Positions 13,910 through 32,286 of a DNA stretch of 35,977 bases are shown piece after piece. The notes beneath the pieces are model-generated. The model saw only the letters and a list, made by a program, of their open reading frames with translations. It searched no databases and was not told the DNA's origin. The DNA comes from Actinomycetota bacterium (GTDB lineage: Bacteria; Actinomycetota; Actinomycetes; Nanopelagicales; Nanopelagicaceae): assembly GCA_026393015.1 (NCBI GenBank), contig JAPLBA010000070.1, forward strand, positions 1-35,977, written 5' to 3'. A program made the translations under genes and the position numbers. Position 1 is the first letter of the stretch. Each line of letters begins with the position of its first letter.

Positions 13910-14776
13910 CTACAGACCGAGGGGACCCCCGATGAGGCTCAGCGCTTCATCAATGGAGCGGGCGTGTACCGCTCCCGCAGGGTGAGGAATATCCGCAAAA
14001 CCTGGACCTCCAGTAACGATTCGTGGAGCCGGGCGGATCGATGGGAAGCAGGAGAAATCTACGAGTTGCGAACTCTCCAAACGTTGCGACCAGATAAAGA
14101 CGGCTAATGGCCCGGTCTTTGCCATGACCGCAGCAAGTGCTCTCGATGGAGTTCTCGCACCAAGCAAGTGTGTAGCTACGGACTTTTCGGCTAGTGCCGC
14201 AGCCAATGCATAGAGGGGAAGAATGTGCTGGTCTTCGGGAGCGGAAGTGAGAAGAATTGGGCGAGTATTGATGGGACGTTCTACTTGTGCAGATTCACTC
14301 AGTACCTCCATGAGCAGTGAAGAGAGCGAATGCTCCATTGCAATGGCGTGATCACGCTCTTCCCATTGTTCACCTAACTCCCGCAGCAGCGGTGCGATCG
14401 AGTGATGCCAGGTTGCTATCGCACCGAAACTCTTCAATTGCGCACGCAGGGTGGTACGTATGAAATTCACGTCTAACGCATGCAGCGCCAGTAACAGACT
14501 TGCGAGTGAATCGACCGGCTCGTCGGCGAAGTCAGCACTTTCCTTCACTTCAGGGTCCGCTGCAAGTGCTCGTCTGGCAGCATCTCCAGGAGCGATGCCG
14601 GCAGCGATAAGGCGGCGCATCACTTGAAGGCGACCAAAATCGACTTCCGAGTAACGACGATGTGAGCCAGCTGCATGTTCGCCGGGTCCAAGGCCATATC
14701 GGCGATCCCAGGTACGCAAGGTGGCGGGGGCGATACCGAGCCGCCTGGCCACCGCAGCGACCGTGAATTCGCTCAC
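13910..14776 (-). CDS. MerR-family regulator with CarH/LitR-like cobalamin-binding domain
   Basis: 288 residues. The N-terminal MerR winged helix reads FTVAAVARRLGIAPATLRTWDRRYGLGP, then HRRYSEVDFGRLQVMRRLI. Residues about 85-160 form a helical cap and contain W138-x9-E148-H149, the W-x9-EH signature of the CarH adenosylcobalamin cap. Residues 173-288 resemble a B12-binding Rossmann fold: PEDQH gives His184 at the lower axial ligand position, followed by LLGARTP and GGPGF. CarH/LitR proteins repress genes in the dark and release DNA when light breaks the Co-C bond; photosensing here is inferred from these residues. GTG 14776 has GGGGGG upstream. It is divergent from whiB across a 158-bp region. 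Confidence 0.85.
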   Translation of the reverse strand: MSEFTVAAVARRLGIAPATLRTWDRRYGLGPGEHAAGSHRRYSEVDFGRLQVMRRLIAAGIAPGDAARRALAADPEVKESADFADEPVDSLASLLLALHALDVNFIRTTLRAQLKSFGAIATWHHSIAPLLRELGEQWEERDHAIAMEHSLSSLLMEVLSESAQVERPINTRPILLTSAPEDQHILPLYALAAALAEKSVATHLLGARTPSRALAAVMAKTGPLAVFIWSQRLESSQLVDFSCFPSIRPAPRIVTGGPGFADIPHPAGAVHARSIDEALSLIGGPLGL

Positions 14777-15240: not shown

Positions 15241-16206
15241 CTAACTCTTATCTCGTCTCGACCAGGCATCAGCACCCACGGCCGTCAAAATGACTGCGCC
15301 TTGAATGATGCGCTGATAAACCGGATCAACACCATTTAAGTTGAAACCATTCACGATGAACGCAATAAAGAAGACACCAACCACACTTCGCCAAATGGCA
15401 CCAGAACCACCTGCGATCGAAGTTCCACCCACTACGACGGCTGCAATCACCGCGAAGATGATGCTGAAGTCATCGGAGGCCTGCGCCGTCACGCTGCGAA
15501 TTGAGTTGAGGGTGCCAGCAAGTCCTGCACCAGCGCCCGCAAGTACGAAGGCCGCCACGACTACTCGATTGGTGCGCACACCTGCCAATCGAGCGGCTTC
15601 AAAGTTGCCACCGACGCTAAAGATGTATCGTCCAAAGCGAGTGCGATCAAGCATGATCCACGCAATAGCAACCACGACGAAGGCGATCCAAGTGGCGCTC
15701 GTCAGCCCGAGAATTCGAGTCGTGACCACTTCTCGCATGGTGATATCGGTGACACGGAGAATAGTTCCGTCACTGACAAGGTATGCGATGCCAAAGAATA
15801 TGAATGAAGTAGCAAGGGTGGCAATGAATGAATTGATTCTGCCGTAGGCAACGATAACGCCGTTCAAGAGACCGGCAATGAGACCCACCAGGATCCCCGC
15901 AAGAAGTGTCAGCCATGCTGAGTTGATGTTGTTCTGCACACGCAGTGCAACGAGCGGGGCCAAGATATAGATGGCACCCAGACTCACATCGAAGCCGCCT
16001 GAGATCAAAACAATCGTGGTGAACGCAGCAACAATTAAGACAACTGATTGCTGATCCAAGATATTGCGAAGATTATCCGCCGACAAGAACGCATCTGTGC
16101 TGGCAGAGAGGAAGATGAAGACCAGCAACGTGACCCACACTATCGCGTATTTGGAGAGCAGAGATTTCACGTTGATGCTTCTCGAAGCGGTATCTACAAC
16201 TGTCAT
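15241..16206 (-). CDS. ABC transporter permease (RbsC/BPD_transp_2 type)
   Basis: 321 residues, strongly hydrophobic, with about 8-10 membrane segments. It contains the family signature of sugar-type inner membrane translocators: ISGGFDVSLGAIYILAPLVA, an RINSFIATLATSFIFFGIAYL loop and VVVGGTSIAGGSGAIWRSVVG. It forms the membrane channel of the importer encoded by the two upstream genes; its ATG overlaps the ATPase stop codon (ATGA). The catabolic neighbours imply that the substrate is related to the island's pathway and need not be a sugar. It is convergent with whiB with 15 bp between stops. Confidence 0.93.
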   Translation of the reverse strand: MTVVDTASRSINVKSLLSKYAIVWVTLLVFIFLSASTDAFLSADNLRNILDQQSVVLIVAAFTTIVLISGGFDVSLGAIYILAPLVALRVQNNINSAWLTLLAGILVGLIAGLLNGVIVAYGRINSFIATLATSFIFFGIAYLVSDGTILRVTDITMREVVTTRILGLTSATWIAFVVVAIAWIMLDRTRFGRYIFSVGGNFEAARLAGVRTNRVVVAAFVLAGAGAGLAGTLNSIRSVTAQASDDFSIIFAVIAAVVVGGTSIAGGSGAIWRSVVGVFFIAFIVNGFNLNGVDPVYQRIIQGAVILTAVGADAWSRRDKS

Positions 16207-17702
16207 GACGCCAATCCTTCTCTCTGCTTCATTGAGAACGCCGCTGAAACAACCGCACTCTCACTTATTTGATCCCCCACTAATTCGGCCACAATTCTTC
16301 CGGTCTGCATCACGATAACTCGGTGCGCTAGACCCACAACTTCATCAAGTTCGGAGGAAATCACCAACACGGCCATGCCCTTCCGCGCAAGGTCGGCAAG
16401 TAATTCATAAATAGCTCGCTTAGATCCCACATCGACGCCTCGAGTGGGTTCGTCTGCAATAAAGAGAGTGGGATGGCCAGCAAGTGAGCGCGCAAAGAGC
16501 GCCTTCTGCTGATTTCCACCGGAGAGGGAACGCACGGTCATTTCAGAACTGAGAGCGCGAATGCCCGCAGCCGCAAAATTCTCAGCCACCATGGAATTCT
16601 CTTCTCGCCTCTTCATCAGAAGTTGGCTCAATTTTTTCAAGTAAGGGAGTGAAATGTTCTCCCTAATGGAGCGGTCGAGAATGAGGCCTTGATCCTTACG
16701 AGATTCCGGAATCATGGCGATGCCGTTTTCAATCGCCGTGGCTGGGTGAGAAATCTTGATGACGCTTCCCTGCAATTTCACTTCGCCGGAATCAAAGGGA
16801 TCCGCCCCATAAATTGCCCGTGCGACTTCGCTCCTTCCGGAACCGACCAACCCAGCGAGTGCCACGATCTCTCCGGCGCCTACCGTAAAAGAAATATCAG
16901 CGAACTGCATACCGCGAGTGAGGCCGTTAACTTCCAACACGGGTGCTGGTGAGTTCGGTGGGGTCTTAGCTGGAAAAGCCTCGCCGGCTTTACGCCCAGT
17001 CATAGCCTCAACAAGCGAATCGTGTGTTTCATCTGATGGCTTCGATGTGCGAATAATCTTGCCGTCTCGCATGATGGTGATCGCATCAGAAACATCGAGC
17101 ACATCACCCAAGAAGTGTGAGACGAAGATAATGGTCTTCCCTTGATTGCGCAGTGAGCGCATTACGTCTTTGAGTACCGCCGTCTCTTCGACCGAGAGCC
17201 GCGCAGTGGGCTCATCCATCACGATAACTTCGGCATTTCGGGCAAGTGCCCTGAGGATTTCTACCTTTTGCTGATCGCCGATCGAGAGCGCCGAGACGGG
17301 CCGGTCATTAGGAACGATGATTCCAGATGTGTTCGTTAATTCTTCAAAGCGATCTTTGATAACCCCACGCCGCACCCATGGGCCCGCATGATCTTCAATT
17401 CCTAGATACACATTGTCGGCAGCGTTGCGCGAAGGGACGAGTGAAAGTTCCTGGGCGATGATGGTGATCCCCCGAGAAAGAGCTTCGCGGGGCGAGCCGA
17501 TTGTGACGGCTTGCCCCGCGAGCTCAACTTCCCCGGAATCGAGTTGGTAAACGCCAGAAAGAATCTTTCCAAGCGTCGACTTACCAGCTCCGTTCTCTCC
17601 GATGAGAGAGTGAATGGTGCCAGAAGCGATCTTGAGGTTCACGTTATCTAGCGCGATAGTCGCGCCAAAACGCTTGCTTACGCTTCGAACCTCAAGATCC
17701 AC
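16203..17702 (-). CDS. ABC transporter ATPase with two nucleotide-binding domains (RbsA/XylG type)
   Basis: 499 residues, two fused ATPase domains. Domain 1 has Walker A GENGAGKSTLGKIL, signature LSIGDQQKVEILRAL and Walker B VIVMDEPTA. Domain 2 has a degenerate Walker A GLVGSGRSEVARAI, signature LSGGNQQKALFARSL and Walker B LFIADEPTRGVDVG. A degenerate second P-loop is normal in this importer subfamily, which serves pentoses, galactose, autoinducer-2 and nucleosides. It lies 48 bp downstream of the binding-protein gene and overlaps the permease gene by 4 bp. Confidence 0.95.
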   Translation of the reverse strand: MDLEVRSVSKRFGATIALDNVNLKIASGTIHSLIGENGAGKSTLGKILSGVYQLDSGEVELAGQAVTIGSPREALSRGITIIAQELSLVPSRNAADNVYLGIEDHAGPWVRRGVIKDRFEELTNTSGIIVPNDRPVSALSIGDQQKVEILRALARNAEVIVMDEPTARLSVEETAVLKDVMRSLRNQGKTIIFVSHFLGDVLDVSDAITIMRDGKIIRTSKPSDETHDSLVEAMTGRKAGEAFPAKTPPNSPAPVLEVNGLTRGMQFADISFTVGAGEIVALAGLVGSGRSEVARAIYGADPFDSGEVKLQGSVIKISHPATAIENGIAMIPESRKDQGLILDRSIRENISLPYLKKLSQLLMKRREENSMVAENFAAAGIRALSSEMTVRSLSGGNQQKALFARSLAGHPTLFIADEPTRGVDVGSKRAIYELLADLARKGMAVLVISSELDEVVGLAHRVIVMQTGRIVAELVGDQISESAVVSAAFSMKQREGLAS

Positions 17703-17750
17703 TTCGGCATCATTCCGTTCTTTTCATCAGGTTCTATTCTGCGGTTGAAA

Positions 17751-18776
17751 TTATCCAGCCCACTCTGCAGTGAACTTATCGATGTTCTCCTTGGTCATCA
17801 AAGCCTCATCAGGGACAACGGTTGCTGGATCAATTCCACCAGTCACCTTGCCACTCTTGAGAGCTTCAACCATGGCTTGCATCAAGATCTTGCCTTCAGT
17901 TGCAGGAGCGCCGAAGACGCCACCAAACCAAGTACCAGCCTTGATGCCATCGACTGCTGCTTGTGATCCACCGAGACCGATGAGCTTGGCAGTCTTGCCA
18001 GCGTCGGTGAGGGCGAGAATCGCACCTTGCATTGACTGATCAGAGCCGATAACAACATCGAACTTCTTGGTCTTTTGCATGATGTCAGCAAGCGACTTCT
18101 GCGCGACGTCTGGGCCGAGGTACTTGCCTTCGCCTTCAGCAACAACCTTGATTGCTGGGTTTGCAGAAATTACGGAGTCAAAGCCAAGCTTCAGAGCATT
18201 GTCCAAAGGAATGCCCTTGATTCCGTAGAGGTAAACGACGTTGCAAGGATTAAGACCTTCGCAAGCCTTGACTGTGAGCTTGCCAAGACGCTCGCCTGAG
18301 CGAAGCGGTGCAGCAAGAACAGATACCGAAGGACCTTCGAATTGTGGATCCGAAGTATCAAGTGCGGTGCCCACAATCTGGTTGAGGATACCGACCTTGA
18401 GTCCCTTTGCGATGGCTGCTTGAAGATCAGGAATGACTCCCGCACCGTCGACAGAGGCGATGATGATCGCCTTGTACTTACCGGAAGCGATGATGTCCTG
18501 AATTTGCTTTCCTTGCTCGCCTGGCTTAAACTGAGCATCAAATTCAGTGATCACCATGTTGTTCTCTGCTGCAATGGCATCCATTTCTTTCTTAGATGCT
18601 TGCAACCACGTATTTGCTGAGCTAGCCGAGAGATACGCAATCTCGGTCGCTGGCTCAGCTGGGGCAGCTGCTTCTTCGCTCGATGAGCTAGAGCTGCTGC
18701 AACCGGTGAGAGCAAGTGCTGCGATAACACCGCTCACTGCAACCATGCCGATTAAACGGCGGGTTGAACGTGCCAT
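17751..18776 (-). CDS. Substrate-binding lipoprotein of RbsB type
   Basis: About 341 residues. A lipoprotein signal (MARSTRRLIGMVAVSGVIA then LALTGC, lipid-modified C26) and a serine-rich spacer precede a periplasmic-binding-protein fold of the ribose-binding (Peripla_BP_4) type: IAYLSASSANTWLQASKKEM, IIASVDGAGVIPDL, VVIGSDQSMQGAILAL and GLGGSQAAVDGI. It captures the ligand outside the cell and delivers it to the permease. ATG 18776 is chosen for the strong AAGGAGG ribosome binding site. It is transcribed from a promoter that shares its operator with the DUF917 operons, which links the transporter to that pathway. Confidence 0.93.
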   Translation of the reverse strand: MARSTRRLIGMVAVSGVIAALALTGCSSSSSSSEEAAAPAEPATEIAYLSASSANTWLQASKKEMDAIAAENNMVITEFDAQFKPGEQGKQIQDIIASGKYKAIIIASVDGAGVIPDLQAAIAKGLKVGILNQIVGTALDTSDPQFEGPSVSVLAAPLRSGERLGKLTVKACEGLNPCNVVYLYGIKGIPLDNALKLGFDSVISANPAIKVVAEGEGKYLGPDVAQKSLADIMQKTKKFDVVIGSDQSMQGAILALTDAGKTAKLIGLGGSQAAVDGIKAGTWFGGVFGAPATEGKILMQAMVEALKSGKVTGGIDPATVVPDEALMTKENIDKFTAEWAG

Positions 18777-18830: not shown

Positions 18831-18874
18831 ACTGTATGAGCCCGAAGCGAGCATAGATAGGGGCAATTCGCCCA
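18831..18874 (-). promoter_or_regulatory. Promoter A with GGGGC-N5-GCCCA operator, before transporter operon
   Basis: Reading the minus strand: operator TGGGC-N5-GCCCC (18874-18860), immediately followed by a poor -35 hexamer TATCTA (18859-18854), 17 bp, then -10 TACAGT (18836-18831). The leader to the ATG at 18776 is about 50 nt. A degenerate second half-site TGGGC-N5-GCACA lies at 18891-18905. The weak -35 next to the operator suggests activation. Confidence 0.6.
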
Positions 18875-18934
18875 AATTTGACGCTATTCATGGGCTAGGC
18901 GCACATTTTCAGAGAGAAGCGGACCTTTAAACGC

Positions 18935-20530
18935 CTAGGAGCGCTTCAATTTGACCACCCGGCAGGCTAATTGGACCGCCAGGCGTTCATCGGGGTCATC
19001 GAGGTTTACGGTCAAGAGCGCACGAATCTTCTCAATTCGATTCAGGACGGTATTGCGATGGATTCCGAGGCGAGCCGCGGTTTCCGTAGGCGATGATTGG
19101 TTATCGAGGTAGCTCTCTAGGGTAAAAATTAATTCCCCGTCATGATCGGCTTCAAGGGCATTGGCTAAGAGAGTGTGCGCAAACTCGGCAAAATTATCTG
19201 AGGCATACCACCCCAGCAAAATGCGACGCACACCCATCTCGTCGATATGTTGCACCGCCGTTGCCTGTCCACCCGCTTGCGCAATAGTGCACGCCTCTTT
19301 AGCTTCAGCCAAACTTGTGCGCAGACCCAACACTCCTTGATAAGGGCGCCCCACTCCCATATGCAGGCGGATGCCGGGTGAAGTAGGAATCAACCTACTC
19401 AATGCCGAACTGAGATTTTCTACAATGATTGCGTACGACTTCGATTGAGGTTCATCCTTTTCTACAAACCAACCAGACCAACCATCCGGACGTTCGATGA
19501 TGGGACCCTTAACTCCCACCGCTTGGAGCGCACGACTTAACTCATCGGAACCATTAAGGATACGTTGCGGATCCACCTCACCAGAGACTTGAAGATGAAA
19601 TGCGGAACACCAACCATCTACTTGCCAACCTAAAATTCCAAGTTGCTCGGTAAGGGTTGGCTCTACTCGATCCTTGGTTGCCGTAATTGCGTTGAGAATT
19701 CCAAGCCTGAAGCGCGCATCGCGTTCTCGTTCAAGGCGATCAGCGACCAAGATGGTGGCAATAAACCACGACGCAACGGCAAGTACTTCACTTGCCGACG
19801 ATGATCGACTAGGCGATGGCGATTTAAGGCGAAGCGCTAACCAGAGGGTCGGCTTTTCGCGTGGCGCAAGTGAGAGCGGTTGGGCAAAGTAGACGAAGTC
19901 GCCCGCTCGTTCAGAAGTGGGAACTTCCAAGATAGGCAGCGGAAGAGGGCCATTGAAATCTTTAGGAGCAGAGCTTGAAACTACGGTGCCATCTGAGCCA
20001 AGTAGTGCAGTCGATCCCTGTAAGACGTTTGCCAATACGCGAAGCGCATCCTCAATCGAGCCACCGCGCGGAATTTTACGGAGTTGCGTAAGCGCCTGGA
20101 GAATTGCATCACTTCGAGCCAGGAATGGTAAGCGAACTATTCGCCGAATATCGTCGGCCAGCCTCAATGATTCGACCTGCGAAATAGTGATCAAAGGAAT
20201 CTGCAATTTATCTGAAAGCCGAGTTGCTGGGAGCCCAATTCTCATAGCAGGTGAAACCAGCACAATCCCGCTGGCCTTTCCATCTGCCGCAGCCCTGAGC
20301 GCGATATCTACTTGATAGGTATCGGTGCTTAATGAAGTTGCATCAAAAATGAGGAGGCGATTCTCCATAGTGGCGATTTCATCTTCTACATGGAATGAAT
20401 TAAAAACATTAACGTCTTCAACGACGCGATCGATGCCTTCAGCACCACTTACTAGAACGGCATCGACAAAGAGATCGGTAGCTAGCAATTGCCGAAGCGA
20501 GGTAGTGGCTGGGTCTACAACGGAGTCCAC
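18935..20530 (-). CDS. PucR-family transcriptional regulator
   Basis: 531 residues. The N-terminal PucR/PurC-like domain (about 10-130) starts SLRQLLATDLFVDAVLVSG, a GGDEF-like central region covers about 300-440, and the C-terminal PucR-type helix-turn-helix reads LESYLDNQSSPTETAARLGI followed by HRNTVLNRIEKI. Members activate purine, proline, GABA or other nitrogen-compound catabolic genes in response to ligand. It is the last gene of the DUF917-1/hyuA transcription unit and is followed by the transporter unit. It is the only pathway-type regulator in the island, so it is the best candidate to bind the TGGGC-N5-GCCCA sites; that is inference. GTG 20530 has GGGGGAG upstream. Confidence 0.9.
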   Translation of the reverse strand: MDSVVDPATTSLRQLLATDLFVDAVLVSGAEGIDRVVEDVNVFNSFHVEDEIATMENRLLIFDATSLSTDTYQVDIALRAAADGKASGIVLVSPAMRIGLPATRLSDKLQIPLITISQVESLRLADDIRRIVRLPFLARSDAILQALTQLRKIPRGGSIEDALRVLANVLQGSTALLGSDGTVVSSSAPKDFNGPLPLPILEVPTSERAGDFVYFAQPLSLAPREKPTLWLALRLKSPSPSRSSSASEVLAVASWFIATILVADRLERERDARFRLGILNAITATKDRVEPTLTEQLGILGWQVDGWCSAFHLQVSGEVDPQRILNGSDELSRALQAVGVKGPIIERPDGWSGWFVEKDEPQSKSYAIIVENLSSALSRLIPTSPGIRLHMGVGRPYQGVLGLRTSLAEAKEACTIAQAGGQATAVQHIDEMGVRRILLGWYASDNFAEFAHTLLANALEADHDGELIFTLESYLDNQSSPTETAARLGIHRNTVLNRIEKIRALLTVNLDDPDERLAVQLACRVVKLKRS

Positions 20531-20551
20531 CGCTCCCCCTTTCTACCAAGG

Positions 20552-21559
20552 CTATTTAGCCGGAAGGTAGGAGTCTAACTTTGTTGCCATAGTCTTCCAG
20601 GCAACATCGTGAGCAGCCACTTCTCCGAGCCTTGCAACCAAGACAGGCCCCAAATTCGCCAGATCTGCTGGGCGATCCAGCCCCTGCACAAACGGCCAAC
20701 TATCAAGTGGGGTGAGTGCGCCTCCCAAGATGGGATCACAATGCCCCATGAGATCTTTCATGAAATCAAGACCCAGCGCCACGCTCTGAGAGCCGATCAT
20801 GTTGACCGCATATTCGGCATGATCCACATAACTCTCTACCGTGGGCTCTTTCGAAAGAAATTCGCCGAAACCGTTGAGTGCTACAAAACCGCCCGATGCG
20901 GCGACCGCCTTCATTTGTGCATCACGGAGGTTTCTCGGATGATCTCGAAGTTCAAAAGATGAAGAGTGACTGGCGATGAAAGGCTTCTTCGCAACTTCAT
21001 TCACGTGCCAAAAGCCGTTCTCTGAAAGGTGGCTGATATCGAGCACTATCCCAAGTCGTTCTAACTCGGCAACGGCTTGCACGCCCAAAGCAGTGAGTTT
21101 GCCACCGGTATCGCGTTCGCCCACTCCGTCGGCCATCATGGTGCGCCGATTCCATGAGAGCGACATCATGCGCACGCCCATGCGATAGAAGACGTCGATA
21201 ACTTCGAGACTGCTACCCATTCCTTCTGAGCCTTCAAGTGCAAGGATGAGCGCAATCTTCTTTTCAGAGATTGCCTTGGCGATATCACCTCGATTAAGGC
21301 AAATCGCTACCTCGGACTTATATTTCTCCTCGATTTTCCACGCACATTCAAGAAGCAGAAGTGTTCGGCGCAATGCGCCCTCACCAATGAATTGTTCTTC
21401 CACGTAAACGGGAAGCACCTGCAGAGCGACTCCGCCAGCTTTCAACTGCGGCAACCAGAAATCACCAAAAGGATCAGCGATGCCGCGCTCCTGTTGATGG
21501 AGCACACCGAGCAAAAGGTCATTGTGGCAATCGGCCATCGGTATCAATTTCTGAGCCAT
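20552..21559 (-). CDS. Membrane dipeptidase-like amidohydrolase (peptidase family M19)
   Basis: About 335 residues with an amidohydrolase-type barrel. Zinc-site motifs are visible: MADCHNDLL (H-x-D), ILALEGSEGM (bridging glutamate), LDISHLSENGFWHV and IASHSSSFELRDHPRNL. Characterised M19 enzymes hydrolyse dipeptides with broad stereochemistry and some beta-lactam amide bonds. No signal peptide is seen, so it is cytoplasmic. Being between pucR and the SnoaL gene, it probably cleaves an amide or dipeptide-like intermediate of the island's pathway. The ATG at 21559 follows GGAGG by 5 nt; a GTG one codon earlier is possible. Confidence 0.9.
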   Translation of the reverse strand: MAQKLIPMADCHNDLLLGVLHQQERGIADPFGDFWLPQLKAGGVALQVLPVYVEEQFIGEGALRRTLLLLECAWKIEEKYKSEVAICLNRGDIAKAISEKKIALILALEGSEGMGSSLEVIDVFYRMGVRMMSLSWNRRTMMADGVGERDTGGKLTALGVQAVAELERLGIVLDISHLSENGFWHVNEVAKKPFIASHSSSFELRDHPRNLRDAQMKAVAASGGFVALNGFGEFLSKEPTVESYVDHAEYAVNMIGSQSVALGLDFMKDLMGHCDPILGGALTPLDSWPFVQGLDRPADLANLGPVLVARLGEVAAHDVAWKTMATKLDSYLPAK

Positions 21560-21601
21560 CACATCCTCCTTAGCTGAGCCTTCGAGCGGAATACCTCGAT
21601 G

Positions 21602-22012
21602 TTATCCCTGCTGCGCCCTCTTGAGTACCGCATCCAATGCGCCACTTTCCATAAAGAGCGATGCACGCGTCATCACTTTCCCGTTAGCAGTCACTACCGA
21701 AACGCCACGTACATCTAGTTCACCAAGTTCACTTGATACAGCAAGAGCGGGGGTACCCCGCATACTCCACATCACAGTAACTCGGTCACCCGCTTCAATC
21801 ATCTCCAGAATTTCGCGACGGTAATCGGGATAACAGGAGTAAAGCTCATTCATGGCAATCGCATCTGCCTCAGCAGAAGCTACTTCCGCTACACCATTGA
21901 TCTCAACATAGAGATCATGAGCCACGTAGCGGCCGGTGCCCTCAGAATCTTTTCGATTCTCCGCCTCGTTGTAGCGTCGGTAAATCTCTCCAGCTGCGAG
22001 ATGTTCCGACAT
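21602..22012 (-). CDS. SnoaL-like/NTF2-fold protein
   Basis: 136 residues with the alpha+beta NTF2-like pattern: helix EIYRRYNEAENRKDSEGTGRYV, then HDLYVEINGV, AMNELYSCYPDYRREI and a strand-rich end (DRVTVMWSMRGTPA). This fold covers ester cyclases, isomerases, dehydratases and non-enzymatic proteins; the conserved Phe/Tyr-Pro-Asp segment YPDYRRE is typical of the SnoaL group. Its reaction is not predictable. GGGGAGAAG directly precedes the ATG. It lies 53 bp downstream of hyuA and 42 bp upstream of the M19 gene, so it is part of the operon. Confidence 0.8.
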   Translation of the reverse strand: MSEHLAAGEIYRRYNEAENRKDSEGTGRYVAHDLYVEINGVAEVASAEADAIAMNELYSCYPDYRREILEMIEAGDRVTVMWSMRGTPALAVSSELGELDVRGVSVVTANGKVMTRASLFMESGALDAVLKRAQQG

Positions 22013-22040
22013 CTTCTCCCCTGACTCTCCCGGTGTTCGC

Positions 22041-22075
22041 GGGTTTTAATGGGTATTAATGGGTATTAATGGGTA
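22041..22075. repeat. 10-bp tandem repeat (GGGTATTAAT) at end of hyuA
   Basis: Two perfect copies (22051-22070), a preceding copy with one mismatch (GGGTTTTAAT, 22041-22050) and a following partial copy (GGGTA). The array covers the hyuA stop codon; each unit supplies a TAA in one frame, so copy changes would not extend the protein. Confidence 0.85.
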
Positions 22076-23622
22076 GCGAGCGGACCGGCAGCTTTAACTT
22101 GAACGCGACATCCTTGACCAGGTAAGTAGCTCATCGGAACTTCCACTACAGAAGTGATTCGAACCTGATCGGCATCAGCACCGGCGCGAATGGCCGCCTC
22201 AGTTGCCAAGCGCTTGGCGTCATCAAGACAAGCATCACGGCCTTCAGCTTCATAGCGATATACGCGATCAACAGCTCCCGAAGCCTCCGCAATAGCAGCG
22301 CCAAAAGCATTTGCTACTGAGTGATGGGCGGGGCGAATAACACCGGCAACGCCTGGGATGTCATCAGGTACCAAGTGCGAACCTCCGCCCACTGCAATGA
22401 GTGGAAGAGAAGTGCGGCTAGCCTTCATGCGATCACAGAGAATTTGTATTTGCTCATCAACCCAAGCAAGGGCACCAGCAACAGTGGCATCCTTTACGCC
22501 AGCAACCTTGGATGCGTCACCAAAACCAGTGAGTCGATCACCCTTGGTAGAGATATCAGAGAGCGTGAGGGTAGATCCACCTGTAATGAGAGCTTCAGTC
22601 ACTACTCGATACCCCACAGAGTCTGGACCAACACGCACTCCGCCATCTTCATCACGAACGATGGTGCCGCCGCCAAGACCAATTGAAATCAAATCAGGCA
22701 TGCGGAAGTTTGTACGCACACCGCCGACTTCTACCGCGGCAGATGATTCACGGGGGAAGCCATCGATCAAGATTCCGACGTCAGCCGAAGTACCACCTAC
22801 GTCGATAACCAATGCATCAGAGAGTTTGGCAAGTGCACATGCGCCACGCATTGAGTTAGTAGGACCAGAACCCACAGTAAGAATCGGCAGACGAATAGCC
22901 TCTTCAGCTGTCATCAAAGTGCCATCGTTCTGCGTGAGGTAAGAATCCACTTTGAGACCATGGCTCAGCAGGGCGCCCTGGAAACCGTCGACCACGCGCT
23001 TGGCCACACCGAAGAGTGAGGCATTCAAGATGGTCGCGTTTTCACGCTCAAGCAGGCCAATCGCACCTACTTGATGAGAGAGGGAGACTGCGTAATCTTC
23101 ACCGAGCTCTTCAGCGATAATCGTCCCAGCTCGAAGTTCTTGCTCATAATTTGCTGGAGCAAATGCGCAACTTACGGCGATCGCGTTGACTACGCCCTTG
23201 CACTTCTGCGCAAAATCACGAACTGCTTGTTCATCGAGAGGCGAGATCTCGCTGCCGTCATACTCATATCCACCTTTGATGATGGCAGACGGTCCGATAA
23301 CAGTGGCGTGCAGATCCTTGGGCCAAGCAGCACCTGGACGAATCGCAAGCGATGACGGTGCTGCCAGACGCAATACGCCCACCTGTTGGAGGTCCTTGCG
23401 TTGAATAATCGCGTTAGCTGGATGTGTGGTACCGAGCATCGCCTGCTTAATGTGGCTCTTGTCGATGCCCTCGATCACGGCCTTCAAAGCGGCCGCAATG
23501 CCATCGGATGGATCAGGTGTGGTAACGGCCTTCGTGCTTGCGAGCACGTTGCCATCTTGATCGACCACAACTGCGTCGGTGTTTGTTCCACCTACGTCAA
23601 TACCTATTCGTAGACGACTCAT
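22066..23622 (-). CDS. hyuA: Hydantoinase/oxoprolinase family protein, HyuA-type subunit
   Basis: 518 residues with actin-like ATPase folds: N-terminal GIDVGGTNTDAVVVDQDGNV, LGTTHPANAIIQR, and a second phosphate motif VIDVGGTSADVGILIDGFP, with GGGTIVRDEDGG and IAVGGGSHLVP further on. Full HyuA/5-oxoprolinase A subunits are 650-700 residues, so this is the short form, and no HyuB partner is present. Family members use ATP to open cyclic amides such as hydantoins and 5-oxoproline. Its ATG overlaps the stop of DUF917 copy 1 (ATGA). HyuA and DUF917 domains are also found fused in some eukaryotic proteins (from memory), which supports a joint reaction. Confidence 0.9.
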   Translation of the reverse strand: MSRLRIGIDVGGTNTDAVVVDQDGNVLASTKAVTTPDPSDGIAAALKAVIEGIDKSHIKQAMLGTTHPANAIIQRKDLQQVGVLRLAAPSSLAIRPGAAWPKDLHATVIGPSAIIKGGYEYDGSEISPLDEQAVRDFAQKCKGVVNAIAVSCAFAPANYEQELRAGTIIAEELGEDYAVSLSHQVGAIGLLERENATILNASLFGVAKRVVDGFQGALLSHGLKVDSYLTQNDGTLMTAEEAIRLPILTVGSGPTNSMRGACALAKLSDALVIDVGGTSADVGILIDGFPRESSAAVEVGGVRTNFRMPDLISIGLGGGTIVRDEDGGVRVGPDSVGYRVVTEALITGGSTLTLSDISTKGDRLTGFGDASKVAGVKDATVAGALAWVDEQIQILCDRMKASRTSLPLIAVGGGSHLVPDDIPGVAGVIRPAHHSVANAFGAAIAEASGAVDRVYRYEAEGRDACLDDAKRLATEAAIRAGADADQVRITSVVEVPMSYLPGQGCRVQVKAAGPLATH

Positions 23623-24695
23623 TTCCTGGCTCCTTCCATCGGTGTATAAGGGACGTCATATCCAAATGCTTTCGGTCCTACGAGTTCGAGCATGCCCTCT
23701 TGATGCCACTCAGGTGCGCACGGCAATCCAATAACGTCTACCCGTTGGCCAAACGCGAGAGTTTCAGTAGTAATGGGTTGCGCATTCTCATGATCGAGAA
23801 TGCAAATGAGATCTGGCGTAGTCACTATTGGTTTCCCATCTTCAAAAGCCATCAGGAGCTCGTTCTGGATCTCAATGCGCATCGTGCGAGTCGGATCAGT
23901 GAGATGCTCGATCACCAAGGTGCCTTTAGCGAATCCTTCTGTGGTGCGACGATCGATATCGATTACCTTGCCCGAGAAGTACTTGTGCCCGCCGGAAAAT
24001 TCTAGAAAGGCATCGTAAGCGCCAACTTCGCCCCGTTGAACGGCAGATAACTTTCTTCCTAAGTCAACGCAGTAGGACATCGAGCCTTGAATGCCGAATT
24101 TTCGCACTTGTGCCACCGTCATCGGGTAGCAAGAAATTCCGTTAGCCATGCCCAGTTGCATCACCGAGGCGCGAGCTAGCTTTTCGGCAACCTGGTTCGT
24201 GGTCGTTTGAAAGACCACAATATTTCCTTTTTCATCTGCGACGCTCATGGGCGACGCTGGAATTCCAGCAAGAGTAAAGACTGTCATCTCAATTTGTGGG
24301 AAAGCTCGACGCATGGAGTCTGCATCAATAACTGGCAGGCCCATTTCTGCAGCGACAGCAATCGGAATAAGTGTGTTCATACCACCCACTTCGATCGGCA
24401 TGATGGCAACCGGCTTCTTACCTAAAAACGCAGCAAGTGAGGTCACGCAGCCGACAAACTCTGGTCCAGCCGGCACTTTCTCCGAAATTACCGTAGGGGC
24501 ACCAATAACTGCAGTCGTGAGCACTAATCCGTCTGGATCCAACTCATCTGGAGAGGCAATCATGACAGAGCCGAAATCTTCCATAGCTTGGCGCACCATC
24601 AAACGAGCAATGTAGGGATCTCCGCCGCCACCGGCGCCGAGCAAGGTCGCCCCCAGCACCATGTCATCGAGATCCTCAAGGGTTAATTCGCGCAT
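23619..24695 (-). CDS. DUF917 family protein, copy 1 (S-methyl-thiohydantoin desulfurase-like)
   Basis: 358 residues. Family landmarks are LGATLLGAGGGGDPYIARLM at the N-terminus, IMPIEVGGMNTLIPIAVAAEMG, DADSMRRAFPQIEM, the C-terminal LDHENAQPITTE and GLPCAPEWHQEGMLELVGP. The Pfam family has been renamed after an S-methyl-thiohydantoin desulfurase, so action on hydantoin-like rings is plausible, but the substrate here is unknown. Copy 1 is the most diverged from copies 2 and 3, is coupled to hyuA by a 4-bp overlap, and has its own promoter (24776-24819) and a repeat-filled leader. GGAG lies 6 nt before the ATG. Confidence 0.88.
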   Translation of the reverse strand: MRELTLEDLDDMVLGATLLGAGGGGDPYIARLMVRQAMEDFGSVMIASPDELDPDGLVLTTAVIGAPTVISEKVPAGPEFVGCVTSLAAFLGKKPVAIMPIEVGGMNTLIPIAVAAEMGLPVIDADSMRRAFPQIEMTVFTLAGIPASPMSVADEKGNIVVFQTTTNQVAEKLARASVMQLGMANGISCYPMTVAQVRKFGIQGSMSYCVDLGRKLSAVQRGEVGAYDAFLEFSGGHKYFSGKVIDIDRRTTEGFAKGTLVIEHLTDPTRTMRIEIQNELLMAFEDGKPIVTTPDLICILDHENAQPITTETLAFGQRVDVIGLPCAPEWHQEGMLELVGPKAFGYDVPYTPMEGARK

Positions 24696-24705
24696 CTGCC
24701 GCTCC

Positions 24706-24750
24706 TTCGATCCTGGCTATTTCGATTCTGGCTATTTCGAACCTGGCGAG
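24706..24750. repeat. Three 15-bp tandem repeats in leader of DUF917 copy 1
   Basis: The units TTCGATCCTGGCTAT (24706-24720), TTCGATTCTGGCTAT (24721-24735) and TTCGAACCTGGCGAG (24736-24750) are contiguous and end next to the GGAG ribosome binding site. They lie between the predicted transcription start and the start codon, so they would be transcribed. Confidence 0.9.
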
Positions 24751-24775
24751 CACCTATTAGGGGCTCCAGAGTCCG

Positions 24776-24819
24776 ACGGTAGGGCCTTGAGGGAGCGATG
24801 CCAATGGGCGCCCCGCCCA
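24776..24819 (-). promoter_or_regulatory. Promoter C with TGGGC-N5-GCCCA operator, before DUF917 copy 1
   Basis: Minus strand: a perfect inverted repeat TGGGC-N5-GCCCA (24819-24805), immediately followed by -35 TTGGCA (24804-24799), 17 bp, then -10 TACCGT (24781-24776). This is the same geometry as promoters A and B. It lies in the 178-bp gap between DUF917 copies 2 and 1. Confidence 0.65.
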
Positions 24820-24873
24820 CTATTTTGAATGGCTGAGGACATTTGGCACAGAGAGTCGCGCTCATGGCGGCCA

Positions 24874-25950
24874 TCAGCCCTGGAACTTGGAGATCGGCAC
24901 GTAGGGCACGTCATACCCAAAGGCGGAGGGGCCGACCAGTTCGAGCATCCCTGGTTGGTGCCATTCGGGGGCACAGGGCAAACCGACCACATCGACGCGT
25001 TGACCAAAGGCCAGGGTCTCTGTGGTGATGGGTCCGGCATTCTCATGATCAATGATGCAGATCAAGTCGGGGGCCGTGATGATGGGCTTGCCATCTTCAA
25101 AGGCGATCAAAAATTCGTTTTGAATTTCGATACGCATAATTCTGGTGGGGTCATTCAGATGTTCGATGACTACTGTTCCGCGGGCAAATCCTGCAGTGGT
25201 TCGACGATCAAGATCGATGATCTTGCCGGAGAAGACTCGCTTACCTTCTGCAAAATCTAAGAACTTATCGAAGGCGCCACGTTCCCCGCGTTGCACAGCC
25301 GAAAGTTTGCGCCCGAGATCAACGCAGTAACTCATGGAACCTTGAATGCCATACTTCGCAACTTCGGCAACAGTCATGGAATATGCAGACATAGCAGCTG
25401 ACATACCCAGCTCCATCACCGTTGCACGAGCAAGCTTTTCGGCCACTTGATTAGAAGTGGTACTAAAGATCACAACGTTGCCCTTAATGTCTGCCATCGA
25501 CATTGGCGTTGCAGTTATTCCGGCCAGAGTAAAAGTAGTCATTTCAATTTGTGGAAATGCGCGACGCATGGAATCTGCATCGATAACCGGCAAACCCATC
25601 TCTGCAGCAGCTGCCATCGGAATGAGAGTATTGAGACCGCCCACTTCGATCGGCATGATCGCGATTGGTTCTTTTCCCAGATATTTTGCGAGCGCTCGTG
25701 CGGCGCCCACAAACTCTGGACCGGCCGGTGGCTTTTCGGCGATCACTGTGGGCGCACCAATTCCAGCAACGGTCACCACTAATCCATCGGGATCTAATTC
25801 GCTTGGTTCCACAATCTGAATCGCCCCGTAAGTCTCCATCGCTTGGTGGACCATCAGCCGACCAATATATGGATCCCCACCACCGCCCGCGCCCAAGAGA
25901 GTGGCCCCTAAAGCCATGTCATCTAGGTCAGCGAGGTTTAATTCACGCAT
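24874..25950 (-). CDS. DUF917 family protein, copy 2
   Basis: 358 residues with all the landmarks of copy 1: GAGGGGDPYIGRLM, PIEVGGLNTLIP, DADSMRRAFPQIEM, DHENAGPITTE and PCAPEWHQPGMLELVGP. It is nearly identical to copy 3: by hand count 8 differences in residues 1-147, 13 in residues 148-193 and only 4 from 194 to about 340, with the last residues diverged (VPISKFQG). The ATG at 25950 sits inside the end of copy 3 (ATGCGTGA, 8-bp overlap) with AAGGGG before it; an upstream in-frame ATG at 25989 is rejected because it would overlap copy 3 further. It is the last gene of the promoter B unit. Confidence 0.9.
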   Translation of the reverse strand: MRELNLADLDDMALGATLLGAGGGGDPYIGRLMVHQAMETYGAIQIVEPSELDPDGLVVTVAGIGAPTVIAEKPPAGPEFVGAARALAKYLGKEPIAIMPIEVGGLNTLIPMAAAAEMGLPVIDADSMRRAFPQIEMTTFTLAGITATPMSMADIKGNVVIFSTTSNQVAEKLARATVMELGMSAAMSAYSMTVAEVAKYGIQGSMSYCVDLGRKLSAVQRGERGAFDKFLDFAEGKRVFSGKIIDLDRRTTAGFARGTVVIEHLNDPTRIMRIEIQNEFLIAFEDGKPIITAPDLICIIDHENAGPITTETLAFGQRVDVVGLPCAPEWHQPGMLELVGPSAFGYDVPYVPISKFQG

Positions 25951-27019
25951 TACGCCCCTTAATAGAACGGTATTCGGCGTCATACCCAAAAACGCGTGGC
26001 CCTACCAGTTCGAGCATTCCTGGTTGGTGCCACTCGGGGGCGCACGGCAAACCGACCACATCGACGCGCTGGCCAAAGGCCAGGGTCTCTGTGGTGATGG
26101 GCCCGGCATTCTCATGATCAAGGATGCAGATTAAGTCGGGGGTCGTAATGATGGGCTTGCCATCTTCAAAGGCCATCAAAAATTCGTTTTGAATTTCGAT
26201 ACGCATAATTCTGGTGGGATCTTCAAGATGTTCAATCACCACAGTGCCGCGCGCAAATCCTGCAGTGGTCCGACGATCAAGATCAATGATCTTTCCAGAG
26301 AAGACTCGCTTACCTTCTGCAAAATCTAAGAACTTATCGAAGGCGCCGCGTTCCCCGCGTTGCACAGCCGAAAGTTTGCGTCCGAGATCAACGCAGTAAC
26401 TCATGGAGCCTTGAATGCCATACTTCGCGACTTCAGCAACAGACATGGAATATAGAGACATTCCAGCCCCCATTCCCATTTCTATCATCAATGCACGAGC
26501 AAGTTTTTCGGCAACTTGATTAGTGGTAGTACTGATGATCACAACGTTCCCGTTAATGTCTACCATCGACATCGGGGATGCGGTAATTCCAGCCAAAGTG
26601 AAAGTGGTCATTTCGATTTGTGGAAATGCCCGACGCATCGAATCTGCATCGATAACTGGCAGACCCATCTCGGCTGCGGCGGCCAGTGGAATGAGCGTAT
26701 TGAGACCGCCCACTTCGATCGGCATGATTGCAACTGGTTCTTTTCCAAGATATTTTGCGAGCGCTAGTGCGGCGCCCACAAACTCGGGGCCTGCCGGTGG
26801 TTTTTCAATGAGCACTGTGGGCGCACCAATTCCAGCAACGGTCACCACTAATCCATCGGGATCTAATTCGCTTGGTTCCACAATCTGAACCGCCCCGTAA
26901 GTCTCCATTGCTTGAACGGCCATGAGTCGCCCAATATATGGATCCCCACCACCGCCCGCGCCCAAGAGAGTGGCCCCTAAAGCCATGTCATCTAGGTCAG
27001 CAAGGTTTAATTCACGCAT
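25943..27019 (-). CDS. DUF917 family protein, copy 3
   Basis: 358 residues and the closest relative of copy 2, also at DNA level: long stretches in the 3' half are identical or differ only at wobble positions, which indicates a recent tandem duplication or gene conversion. Family landmarks are intact (GAGGGGDPYIGRLM, DADSMRRAFPQIEM, LDHENAGPITTE, PCAPEWHQPGM). Differences from copy 2 cluster in residues 148-193 (for example MIEMGMGAGMSLYSMS against VMELGMSAAMSAYSMT). The ATG at 27019 overlaps the end of copy 4 by 8 bp (ATGCGTGA), exactly as copy 2 overlaps copy 3, so the duplicated unit includes the junction. Confidence 0.9.
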   Translation of the reverse strand: MRELNLADLDDMALGATLLGAGGGGDPYIGRLMAVQAMETYGAVQIVEPSELDPDGLVVTVAGIGAPTVLIEKPPAGPEFVGAALALAKYLGKEPVAIMPIEVGGLNTLIPLAAAAEMGLPVIDADSMRRAFPQIEMTTFTLAGITASPMSMVDINGNVVIISTTTNQVAEKLARALMIEMGMGAGMSLYSMSVAEVAKYGIQGSMSYCVDLGRKLSAVQRGERGAFDKFLDFAEGKRVFSGKIIDLDRRTTAGFARGTVVIEHLEDPTRIMRIEIQNEFLMAFEDGKPIITTPDLICILDHENAGPITTETLAFGQRVDVVGLPCAPEWHQPGMLELVGPRVFGYDAEYRSIKGRNA

Positions 27020-28088
27020 CGCGTCCCTCGATGGAACGGTAATCGGTGTCATACCCAAAAGCGCGTGGCCCTACTAGTTCTAGCATCCCTGGCTGATGCC
27101 ACTCCGGTGCACACGGCAAACCGACCACATTAACTCGTTGTCCAAAATTTAATCCTTCGACCGTGATGGGTTGTGCGTTCTCGTGGTCAAGTACACAAAT
27201 GAGATCTGGCGTCGTCACCACGGCTTCGTCGCCGTCGTAGGCAATAAGAAACTCGTTCTGGAAATCAAGACGCATCCTGCGATCCGGATCCTTAAAGTCT
27301 TCGATCAGTAGCGTGCCGCGCGCAAAGCCACCAGTGGTGCGCCGATCTAAGTCAATAATCTTCCCAGAGAAAAAGATTTTGGCTTTTGCGAACTCAAGAA
27401 ACTCAGCGTAAGCACCAGCCTTACCATTTTGAATCTGCTGTAAGTAGCGACCTAGCTCTGCGCAGTACGTCATGGAACCGTTAATGCCATGTTCTGCTAC
27501 TTGCTTTGCTGACATAGAGTAAGAAGAAAGCCCATCAGCCATCCCAAGTTGCATCACGCATGCACGCGCTAATTTCTCGGCGATCTGATTGGTTGTTGTT
27601 TCAAAAACCACTACGTTGCCTTTTTCATCCGCCAAACTCATGGGCGATGCAGAAATTCCAGCGAGCGTAAAAACGGTCATCTCAATTCCCGGAAACGCGC
27701 GGCGCATAGAATCTCCATCGACTACTGGGATTCCCATTTCGGCGGCCACTGCAAGTGGGAAGAGCGTGTTAAGACCGCCGACTTCTATAGCCATCACTGC
27801 CGCAGGTTTCTTACCGAGATACTTAGCAAGTGACTTCACGGCATCAACGAACTCAGTGCCAGAAGGGACCTTCTCTGTCATCACGGTGGGCGCACCAATC
27901 ACTGCAACCGTGAGCACTAGATCATCCGGATCCAGCTCGCTCGCACTCACGATATTTACTTCCCCGTACTTAGCCATCGCCTCTTGAACCATGAGCAGAG
28001 AAATGTAGGGATCGCCGCCACCGCCGGCGCCCAAAAGAGTGGCGCCCAGAGCCATGTGCTGGAGACCTTCTGGGGTGAGGCGGTACAT
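27012..28088 (-). CDS. DUF917 family protein, copy 4 (first gene of the unit)
   Basis: 358 residues, more distant from copies 2 and 3. The start differs (MYRLTPEGLQHMALGATLLGAGGGGDPYIS), it has VEVGG-equivalent AIEVGGLNTLFPLAVAAEMG, DGDSMRRAFPGIEM with Gly for Ala, AELGRYLQQIQNG in place of VDLGRKLSAVQRG, and VLDHENAQPITVE near the end. The C-terminal tail YRSIEGRDA matches the tail of copy 3. AAGGAG precedes ATG 28088. It is expressed from promoter B, divergent from mmsA across 228 bp. A distinct substrate or partner role from copies 2 and 3 is plausible but unproven. Confidence 0.9.
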   Translation of the reverse strand: MYRLTPEGLQHMALGATLLGAGGGGDPYISLLMVQEAMAKYGEVNIVSASELDPDDLVLTVAVIGAPTVMTEKVPSGTEFVDAVKSLAKYLGKKPAAVMAIEVGGLNTLFPLAVAAEMGIPVVDGDSMRRAFPGIEMTVFTLAGISASPMSLADEKGNVVVFETTTNQIAEKLARACVMQLGMADGLSSYSMSAKQVAEHGINGSMTYCAELGRYLQQIQNGKAGAYAEFLEFAKAKIFFSGKIIDLDRRTTGGFARGTLLIEDFKDPDRRMRLDFQNEFLIAYDGDEAVVTTPDLICVLDHENAQPITVEGLNFGQRVNVVGLPCAPEWHQPGMLELVGPRAFGYDTDYRSIEGRDA

Positions 28089-28141
28089 GAGGGCTCCTTC
28101 TGCTCGCGAATTCTCTGCTTGAACTGAGGTGAACTTAAGCG

Positions 28142-28185
28142 AACCTAGGGGGCGAGTGGGCGTCTGCCAATGGGCAAAGCGCCCA
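28142..28185 (-). promoter_or_regulatory. Promoter B with TGGGC-N5-GCCCA operator, before DUF917 copies 4-3-2
   Basis: Minus strand: a perfect inverted repeat TGGGC-N5-GCCCA (28185-28171), immediately followed by -35 TTGGCA (28170-28165), 17 bp, then -10 TAGGTT (28147-28142). Extra TGGGC half-sites lie at 28157 and 28192 on the plus strand. The site lies between the divergent DUF917 copy 4 and mmsA genes, so it may also influence mmsA, though no matching promoter geometry is seen on that side. Confidence 0.65.
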
Positions 28186-28316
28186 AACTCTTGGGCAAAT
28201 CTCCTCGGAACGCCCTCCCGGCTCCAGTCGGAGCCTCATTTGCCAGGCTCTCATTCCGCCAGGAGAATTGAGCCCATAAGACTTCCGTAGACCTCACGTC
28301 AGGGAATTGAGCAGCC

Positions 28317-30645: not shown

Positions 30646-32286
30646 TTAGTGGTTATGTCCGCCAGGTCCATGTGAGTGGCCATGTCCGCCACCGGCTGGC
30701 GCTGAGTTATCGCCTTCGACCTTCTCAACAACAGTGGCTTCGGTAGTGAGCAGCATGGCCGAGATTGATGCGGCGTTAGCAAGCGCAGAGCGCGTCACCT
30801 TCACAGGGTCAATAACACCAGCTTTGACCAAGTCAACGTATTCACCAGTAGCAGCGTTCAAGCCGAAGTTATCTGAAAGCTCGCGTACCTTGGCGACAGC
30901 GACATAGCCTTCGAGGCCGGCATTTTCGGCAATCCAACGAAGTGGCTCATCAACGGCTTTGCGAACGAGGCGTACGCCGACTGCTTCATCACCTGAGAGT
31001 CCAAGATCGCCCGCGAGCACAGTGGCAGCATGCACGAGTGCACTTCCACCGCCAGAAACAATGCCTTCTTCAACCGCAGCACGCGTTGCTGAAATGGCAT
31101 CTTCGAGACGGTGCTTCTTCTCTTTGAGCTCAACCTCAGTATGTGCGCCCACCTTGATGACACAGACGCCACCAGAGAGTTTGGCAAGACGCTATTGGAG
31201 CTTCTCTTTATCCCAATCGGCATCAGTGCGTGAGATTTCTCCACGAATTTCTGAAACGCGACCTTCGACATCTGCCTTATTGCCGGCGCCGTCGATAATC
31301 GTGGTGTTCTCTTTGGTGACGAGGACGCGGCGAGCGCGACCCAAGTACTCAAGACCGATTTGATCAAGCTTGAGACCAATTTCAGCTGAGATAACTTGAC
31401 CACCGGTGAGAATTGCAATGTCTTGGAGCATCGCCTTGCGGCGATCGCCAAATCCTGGAGCCTTGATAGCTACAGCGGTGAAGAGACCGCGCATCTTGTT
31501 CACTACGAGAGTGGAAAGCGCTTCGCCTTCTACATCTTCAGCAATGATGACAAGTGGCTTGCCGCCTTGGGCGACCTTTTCCATGATGGGAAGAAGTTCG
31601 CTGAGCGAAGAAATCTTCGACTGAGTGATGAGCACGTAAGCATCTTCGAGGATGGCTTCCATGCGCTCTTGGTCAGTCACGAAGTAGGGAGATATGTAAC
31701 CCTTATCGAATTGCATACCTTCAGTAAATTCGAGTTCCAAGCCAGTGGTGTTTGATTCTTCGACCGTGATAACGCCATCTTTGCCAACTTTGTCCATGGC
31801 CTCAGCAATAAGATCACCGATAGCAGGATCTTGCGCCGAGATGGTGGCAACGTTAGCGATCTGCGACTTGTCTTTTACTGGAATAGCAGTTGATGCGAGC
31901 TTCTCCACGAGAGCGACAACAGCGGCTTCGATGCCCTTCTTGATCGCCATGGGTTGTGCGCCAGCAGCGAGGTTGCGAAGGCCTTCGTGGATCATGGCTT
32001 GGGCAAGCACGGTGGCTGTCGTGGTGCCATCACCGGCGACGTCGTTGGTCTTAGTGGCAACTTCCTTGACGAGTTGTGCGCCAAGGTTTTCACCGGCGTG
32101 CTCCAACTCGATTTCGCGAGCGATGGTGACACCATCGTTAGTAATGGTAGGTGCGCCAAACTTCTTATCGATGACAACATTGCGACCCTTAGGTCCAAGC
32201 GTCACCTTTACTGCGTTGGCGAGAGCGTCGACTCCACGCTCCATCGCACGACGGGCATTTTCATCAAAACTGAGTGTCTTAGACAT
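30646..32286 (-). pseudogene. groEL: 60-kDa chaperonin GroEL1, interrupted by in-frame UAG at codon 365
   Basis: The frame spans 546 codons from ATG 32286 and is intact except for one TAG (31194-31192). The N-terminal part (31192-32286, 364 aa) has [20 protein letters not shown] and the ATP-site [15 protein letters not shown]. The part after the stop resumes in the same frame with RLAKLSGG, then [20 protein letters not shown], and ends with the His-rich tail [15 protein letters not shown] that marks the actinobacterial GroEL1 type. Homologues have Glu at the stop (KLQERLAKL), so GAG to TAG is the simplest change. A product truncated at 364 aa lacks the equatorial return and cannot form a ring. 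Possibilities are a real nonsense mutation in a dispensable GroEL1, UAG readthrough, an internal GTG restart at 31152, or a base error. A groEL2 elsewhere would be expected. Confidence 0.88.
31192..31194 (-). other. Premature amber codon inside groEL
   Basis: The minus strand reads AAG-CTC-CAA-TAG-CGT-CTT. The usual residue here is Glu (GAG), one transversion away. No frameshift is needed on either side. Confidence 0.9.

Follow-up and report, generated by a model that had tools for sequence, protein, structure and literature searches.

GabR of C. glutamicum is a PucR-type activator of gabTDP that binds two inverted repeats of 21 bp, both located in the region from -87 to -33 and both needed for strong binding (PMC7652997). 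The same paper cites, as further activators of the family, PutR and AdeR of B. subtilis, whose sites are palindromic (inverted repeats of 17 bp and 24 bp), and describes the site of B. subtilis PucR as not palindromic (PMC7652997). In MabR (Rv2242) of M. tuberculosis, the recognition helices are spaced to enter two neighbouring major grooves (PMC11617747). The DUF917 enzymes, which recur in the loci considered here, had no experimental characterisation as of 2024 (PMC11055893).

The window, which is the whole stretch of 35,977 nucleotides analysed here, carries a gene island with three promoter elements (S1, S2 and S3) and a gene for a PucR-type protein. GabR is the nearest precedent for this arrangement. 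In both cases a PucR-family regulator lies beside its catabolic operon; GabR is a local activator, and activation is predicted here. The GabR repeats at -87 to -33 compare with two dyads at about -81 to -36 in S1 and its orthologues; at S2 and S3 the distal dyad is degraded. In contrast to the island PucR, GabR has no GGDEF-like domain; the stated length of its repeats is 21 bp and that of the dyads here 15 bp; its regulon is one operon, whereas the present site is common to three promoters and its layout was followed across families. PutR and AdeR resemble S1–S3 in their palindromic sites but serve other pathways. B. subtilis PucR, the family namesake, acts in purine/allantoin catabolism, which is chemically near the hydantoins, but its site differs from the palindromes found here. 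MabR, which forms dimers and tetramers, shares the family, the GGDEF-like domain and the HTH with the island PucR, and the distance between its helices matches a palindrome whose half-sites are separated by one turn, as here; it differs in having a globin-like N-terminal domain and in regulating mycolic-acid genes. The preliminary description of this DNA knew of no published site of this kind for the family. This holds for the exact sequence of S1–S3, for which no published report was found in the open-access literature, but not for the inverted-repeat type, for which GabR is a precedent. S1–S3 would thus represent a new operator and regulon in a family for which inverted-repeat sites are already known.

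Genes and promoter elements of the island

The island reads as a gene set for the uptake and breakdown of hydantoin-like compounds, organized as follows.

15241..18776, minus strand: ABC-transporter operon of S1, encoding an SBP (Peripla_BP_4), an ATPase and a permease (BPD_transp_2)
18935..20530, minus strand: pucR, the proposed regulator gene and final gene of the S2 operon
20552..24695, minus strand: S2 operon upstream of pucR, encoding an M19 dipeptidase, a SnoaL-like protein, HyuA (hydantoinase/oxoprolinase) and DUF917 (S-Me-THD)
24874..28088, minus strand: S3 operon of three tandem DUF917 (S-Me-THD, PF06032/PF20906) genes

The PucR protein contains a C-terminal HTH (HTH_30, PF13556; 74.5 bits, cut-off 27) and a GGDEF-like domain (PF17853; 46.5 bits, cut-off 24.5), while its N-terminal domain (PF07905; 32.7 bits, E = 9.9e-8) scores slightly below the cut-off of 33.5. 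At 30646-32286, the chaperonin Cpn60 is represented by two adjacent ORFs (profile positions 1-331 and 342-489), which may reflect a frameshift, a sequencing error or an additional copy that has been disrupted. No Rfam match was found within the window.

The three promoter elements consist of the following parts.

18874..18831, minus strand: full element of S1, TGGGCGAATTGCCCC-TATCTA-17-TACAGT
18860..18874, minus strand: proximal dyad of S1, TGGGCGAATTGCCCC, with C as its last base at 18860
18831..18859, minus strand: S1 promoter (TATCTA, 17 bp, TACAGT), ahead of the ABC-transporter operon
18891..18905, minus strand: distal dyad of S1, TGTGCGCCTAGCCCA, a good copy exactly 31 bp above the proximal dyad
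24819..24776, minus strand: full element of S2, TGGGCGGGGCGCCCA-TTGGCA-17-TACCGT
24805..24819, minus strand: proximal dyad of S2, TGGGCGGGGCGCCCA
24776..24804, minus strand: S2 promoter (TTGGCA, 17 bp, TACCGT), ahead of DUF917-hyuA-SnoaL-M19-pucR
24836..24850, minus strand: distal dyad of S2, TGTGCCAAATGTCCT, degenerate, 31 bp upstream
28185..28142, minus strand: full element of S3, TGGGCGCTTTGCCCA-TTGGCA-17-TAGGTT
28171..28185, minus strand: proximal dyad of S3, TGGGCGCTTTGCCCA
28142..28170, minus strand: S3 promoter (TTGGCA, 17 bp, TAGGTT), ahead of the three tandem DUF917 genes
28202..28216, minus strand: distal position of S3, 31 bp upstream, with the left half-site AGGGCG only

At all three sites the sequence reads TGGGC-N5-GCCC(A/C), followed by 6 + 17 bp and TAnnnT. 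Direct reading agrees with the minus-strand coordinates of the preliminary description at 3/3 sites, and also with the arm mismatch that it placed at 18860 and with its dyad set against the -35. Each proximal dyad is 15 bp long and abuts the -35 position. When the first T of TAnnnT is counted as -12, the proximal dyad would span about -50 to -36 (centre about -43) and the distal dyad about -81 to -67 (centre about -74). The promoters had been described as carrying one repeat each; the repeat itself is there, but the second dyad 31 bp upstream speaks against a single-site operator.

Rarity and conservation of the composite site

The discriminating power of the motif was assessed by pattern searches, on which all genome-wide statistics are based. 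The bare dyad with one mismatch allowed occurs four times in the window, compared with 1.3 expected, and the perfect TGGGCN5GCCCA occurs seven times in the 1.8-Mb genome. It was rejected as a discriminating motif, since the other five genomic copies are not followed by a properly spaced TAnnnT. The composite GGGCN5GCCCM-N22-24-TANNNT has four genome matches, three of which are S1–S3, and the relaxed composite TGKGCN5GCCYM-N22-24-TANNNT matches the genome exactly three times, at S1, S2 and S3; its reversed control gave no match in the genome. Many unrelated copies in the genome had been named beforehand as one of the outcomes that would refute the proposal, and all three matches proved to be island promoters. 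By itself the bare dyad says little; the composite is strong evidence. Its confinement to these three promoters argues for the regulon proposed earlier, which would unite the transporter, DUF917/hyuA/SnoaL/M19/pucR and the DUF917 genes. The family comparison covered 41 genomes, 37 of them outside the genus; these 37 contain five matches to the relaxed composite in total (0.14 per genome), and no full-length pucR orthologue was found in the examined subset of the family genomes outside the genus.

Three further genomes of the genus contain the island, with PucR 94-98% identical. The proximal dyad of S1 is invariant across the four genus members except for one central base. In G002, where DNA identity is 82%, the blocks ATTTGGGCG.ATTGCCCCTATC, GTGGGCGG.GCGCCCATTGGCA and TTTGGGCGCTTTGCCCATTGGCA are retained and the neighbouring bases have changed; the distal positions of S2, TGTGCCAAA(T/C)GTCC, and S3, GGAGGGCGTTCCG, are retained as well. 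The dyads read as footprints, nearly constant at 82% DNA identity while their flanks drift. Together with the differing spacers, this bears out the earlier statement that the match is not from recent copying. The TA of the -10 is retained in G002, with TAC conserved at S1, and the -35 of S1 is not conserved across the genus (TATCTA/TATCCG/TATCGC). Two extra composite matches in G002 (contigs C21 and C34) lie inside ORFs and were set aside.

PucR orthologues of about 50-55% identity were found at five loci of other families (L072, L073, L087, L088 and L091), where the gene order is mostly DUF917-hyuA-SnoaL-M19-pucR, then an antisense hydantoin racemase, then the transporter. The antisense racemase was identified in L073 and L088, where it adjoins pucR; the window has no such gene between pucR and the transporter. 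The four tandem DUF917 (S-Me-THD) genes at 23619-28088 of the window characterize this genus, and one such gene each was seen in L073, L087 and L088. In L073, L087 and L088, TGKGC-N5-GCCYM lies 22-23 bp before TAnnnT at the promoters of both DUF917 and the transporter; L072, whose contig starts within hyuA, shows this at its transporter promoter. L091 has a tandem ahead of DUF917, but TAnnnT is missing at 23 bp. The repeat is thus present in orthologous islands of genus members and of other families, a conservation whose absence the preliminary description had named as a refutation. Across 16 aligned promoters the composite geometry is conserved and the -35 is weakly conserved, with TTGACA as a weak majority. 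The shared design described earlier stands in its dyad, spacing and -10, but not in its -35 hexamers, which are poor and variable.

The full 31-bp tandem pattern has a single match in the own genome and likewise one in G002, located at the transporter promoter. The distal dyad starts exactly 31 bp above the proximal one in S1 (18905/18874), in G002 and at four of the orthologous loci, whose dyad positions are as follows.

L072: 5472/5503
L073: 5189/5220
L087: 11947/11978
L091: 897/928

Third dyad copies are located at L087:11896 and L072:5392, still further upstream of the transporter promoter (51 bp and 80 bp, respectively, beyond the second copy), which suggests larger operator arrays in some relatives.

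The 31-bp tandem in distant PucR loci

A matrix built from the window and the near loci was applied to ten loci picked by PucR homology (PucR about 30-34% identical). Since the near loci had served as training set for the matrix, only these distant loci provide an independent test. Among 64 spacings (16-79 bp), 31 bp ranks top in seven of the ten loci and second in one, with a mean score of 17.4 compared with 5.35 (sd 1.97) over all spacings. In 8/10 loci, the observed score was reached by at most 1 of 200 dinucleotide shuffles. The 31-bp tandem was found in eight loci, most with DUF917/hyuA adjoining, and TAnnnT follows exactly 23 bp beyond it in five of these eight. In L078 and L092, the tandem precedes a purine/allantoin-type permease and hyuA. 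The matrix scan detected no 31-bp tandem in L075 and L076, and TAnnnT at 23 bp was not found in L077, L079 and L080, which do have the tandem. L080 has neither DUF917 nor hyuA nearby, and its tandem may lie inside coding sequence. At 21 control loci, which surround other PucR paralogues, the mean score was 1.9, with one high value (13.9, L146). When palindrome pairs were ranked by spacing with no matrix, over whole loci or putative non-coding stretches, 31 bp did not stand out; this search is too noisy and recovers few even of the known pairs.

At L043:14302-14347, where hyuA and a hydantoin racemase gene diverge, a single 31-bp tandem occupies the space between them and has TAnnnT exactly 23 bp away in either direction; it is predicted to be a symmetric shared operator.

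Pairs with the same spacing were also observed beside other PucR-type genes. A second gene of this type in the own genome (503 aa; L032:454-500, contig C156 of G000) has a divergent neighbour, and in the gap between them GGGACATAACGTCAA and TTGACATAGCGTCAC lie at a spacing of exactly 31 bp. The counterpart in G002 (L033:421-467) conserves the GGGACATAACGTCAA/TTGACATAGCGTCAC pair with a different spacer. These dyads are of the TTGAC type, so that the 31-bp geometry is shared with S1 and the half-site is another. At L146:2578-2623 (G054), which belongs to another PucR subfamily, TGTACGTTTCCTCCA and TGGAGGAAACGCACA are mutual inverted copies 31 bp apart, apparently just upstream of the expected pucR start of this locus as judged by position.

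Proposed regulator and mode of action

The palindromes of S1–S3 very probably serve as the promoter-proximal operators in a local regulon under the PucR-type protein of the island. The preliminary description had named the resident PucR as the natural candidate, which the comparison of loci favors: PucR is the sole recognised DNA-binding product common to them, and its linkage to DUF917/hyuA persists down to about 30% identity. A MerR/B12-type gene (13910-14776) was rejected as the regulator, as it has no counterpart in the related loci.

We infer that a PucR dimer would bind TGKGCR-N3-YGCCYA, in which the half-sites lie one helical turn apart; their centre-to-centre distance of 10 bp fits one helix-turn-helix dimer. 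The proximal dimer would cover about -50 to -36 and so adjoin the -35 of a sigma-A promoter that is weak and has a 17-bp spacer and TAnnnT, and a second dimer would bind exactly 31 bp upstream, at about -74. As 31 bp corresponds to three turns, both dimers would occupy the same DNA face. The sequence geometry is that of a class II activated sigma-70-type promoter, with a site centre near -41 to -43, a weak -35 and TAnnnT at normal spacing. With TTGACA as only a weak majority at the -35, the promoters probably have little strength of their own and depend on help from bound protein. PucR would sense a hydantoin-like substrate or breakdown product and activate three operons, namely the transporter, DUF917/hyuA/SnoaL/M19/pucR and the extra DUF917 genes. 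Since pucR is last in the S2 operon, it would control its own operon in positive feedback.

It is unlikely that PucR binds these dyads mainly as a repressor, which would block RNA polymerase until released by an inducer. A protein bound at the proximal dyad, which abuts the -35, could hinder polymerase; however, the fixed distance of 22-23 bp to the -10 over many families, the in-phase dyad at -74 and the poor -35 are typical of activation. Repressor sites are usually located over or downstream of the -10, at variable positions. B. subtilis PucR is both activator and repressor, whereas the remaining PucR-type regulators listed in the same source are activators (PMC7652997). A regulator encoded elsewhere, such as a nitrogen regulator or another protein of the PucR type, with pucR merely linked to the sites, is very improbable. 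The genome does encode two further HTH_30 proteins as well as global regulators, but it has no composite site outside the island, unlike what a global regulator would show; the site travels with pucR/DUF917/hyuA between families, and the paralogous pucR on C156 is adjoined by a different dyad.

There is next to no likelihood that the resemblance arose by chance or by duplication of promoter DNA, without function. The bare dyad is weakly enriched in the window and the four tandem DUF917 paralogues indicate that duplication happened in the island; however, the spacers are unlike one another, the dyads stay constant against drifting flanks, and the same layout recurs in unrelated families and at transporter and racemase promoters. 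The conservation tests have in practice refuted this explanation.

Control of S1–S3 by the island PucR would provide a concrete candidate operator for the PucR clade tied to DUF917/hyuA clusters and a promoter usable for inducer screening. The site delimits a set of genes for transporter, DUF917, HyuA, racemase and permeases, which makes a hydantoin-like compound or a cyclic amide the likely substrate. The 31-bp pairs on C156 and in L146, together with the GabR repeats within -87 to -33, lead toward a general geometry. It is conceivable, though on balance doubtful, that a 15-bp dyad, a second dyad 31 bp upstream and 23 bp to the -10 constitute a general operator rule for actinobacterial PucR activators, with half-site letters drifting between subfamilies. 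If true, this would make it possible to read operators in a large regulator family with few known sites.
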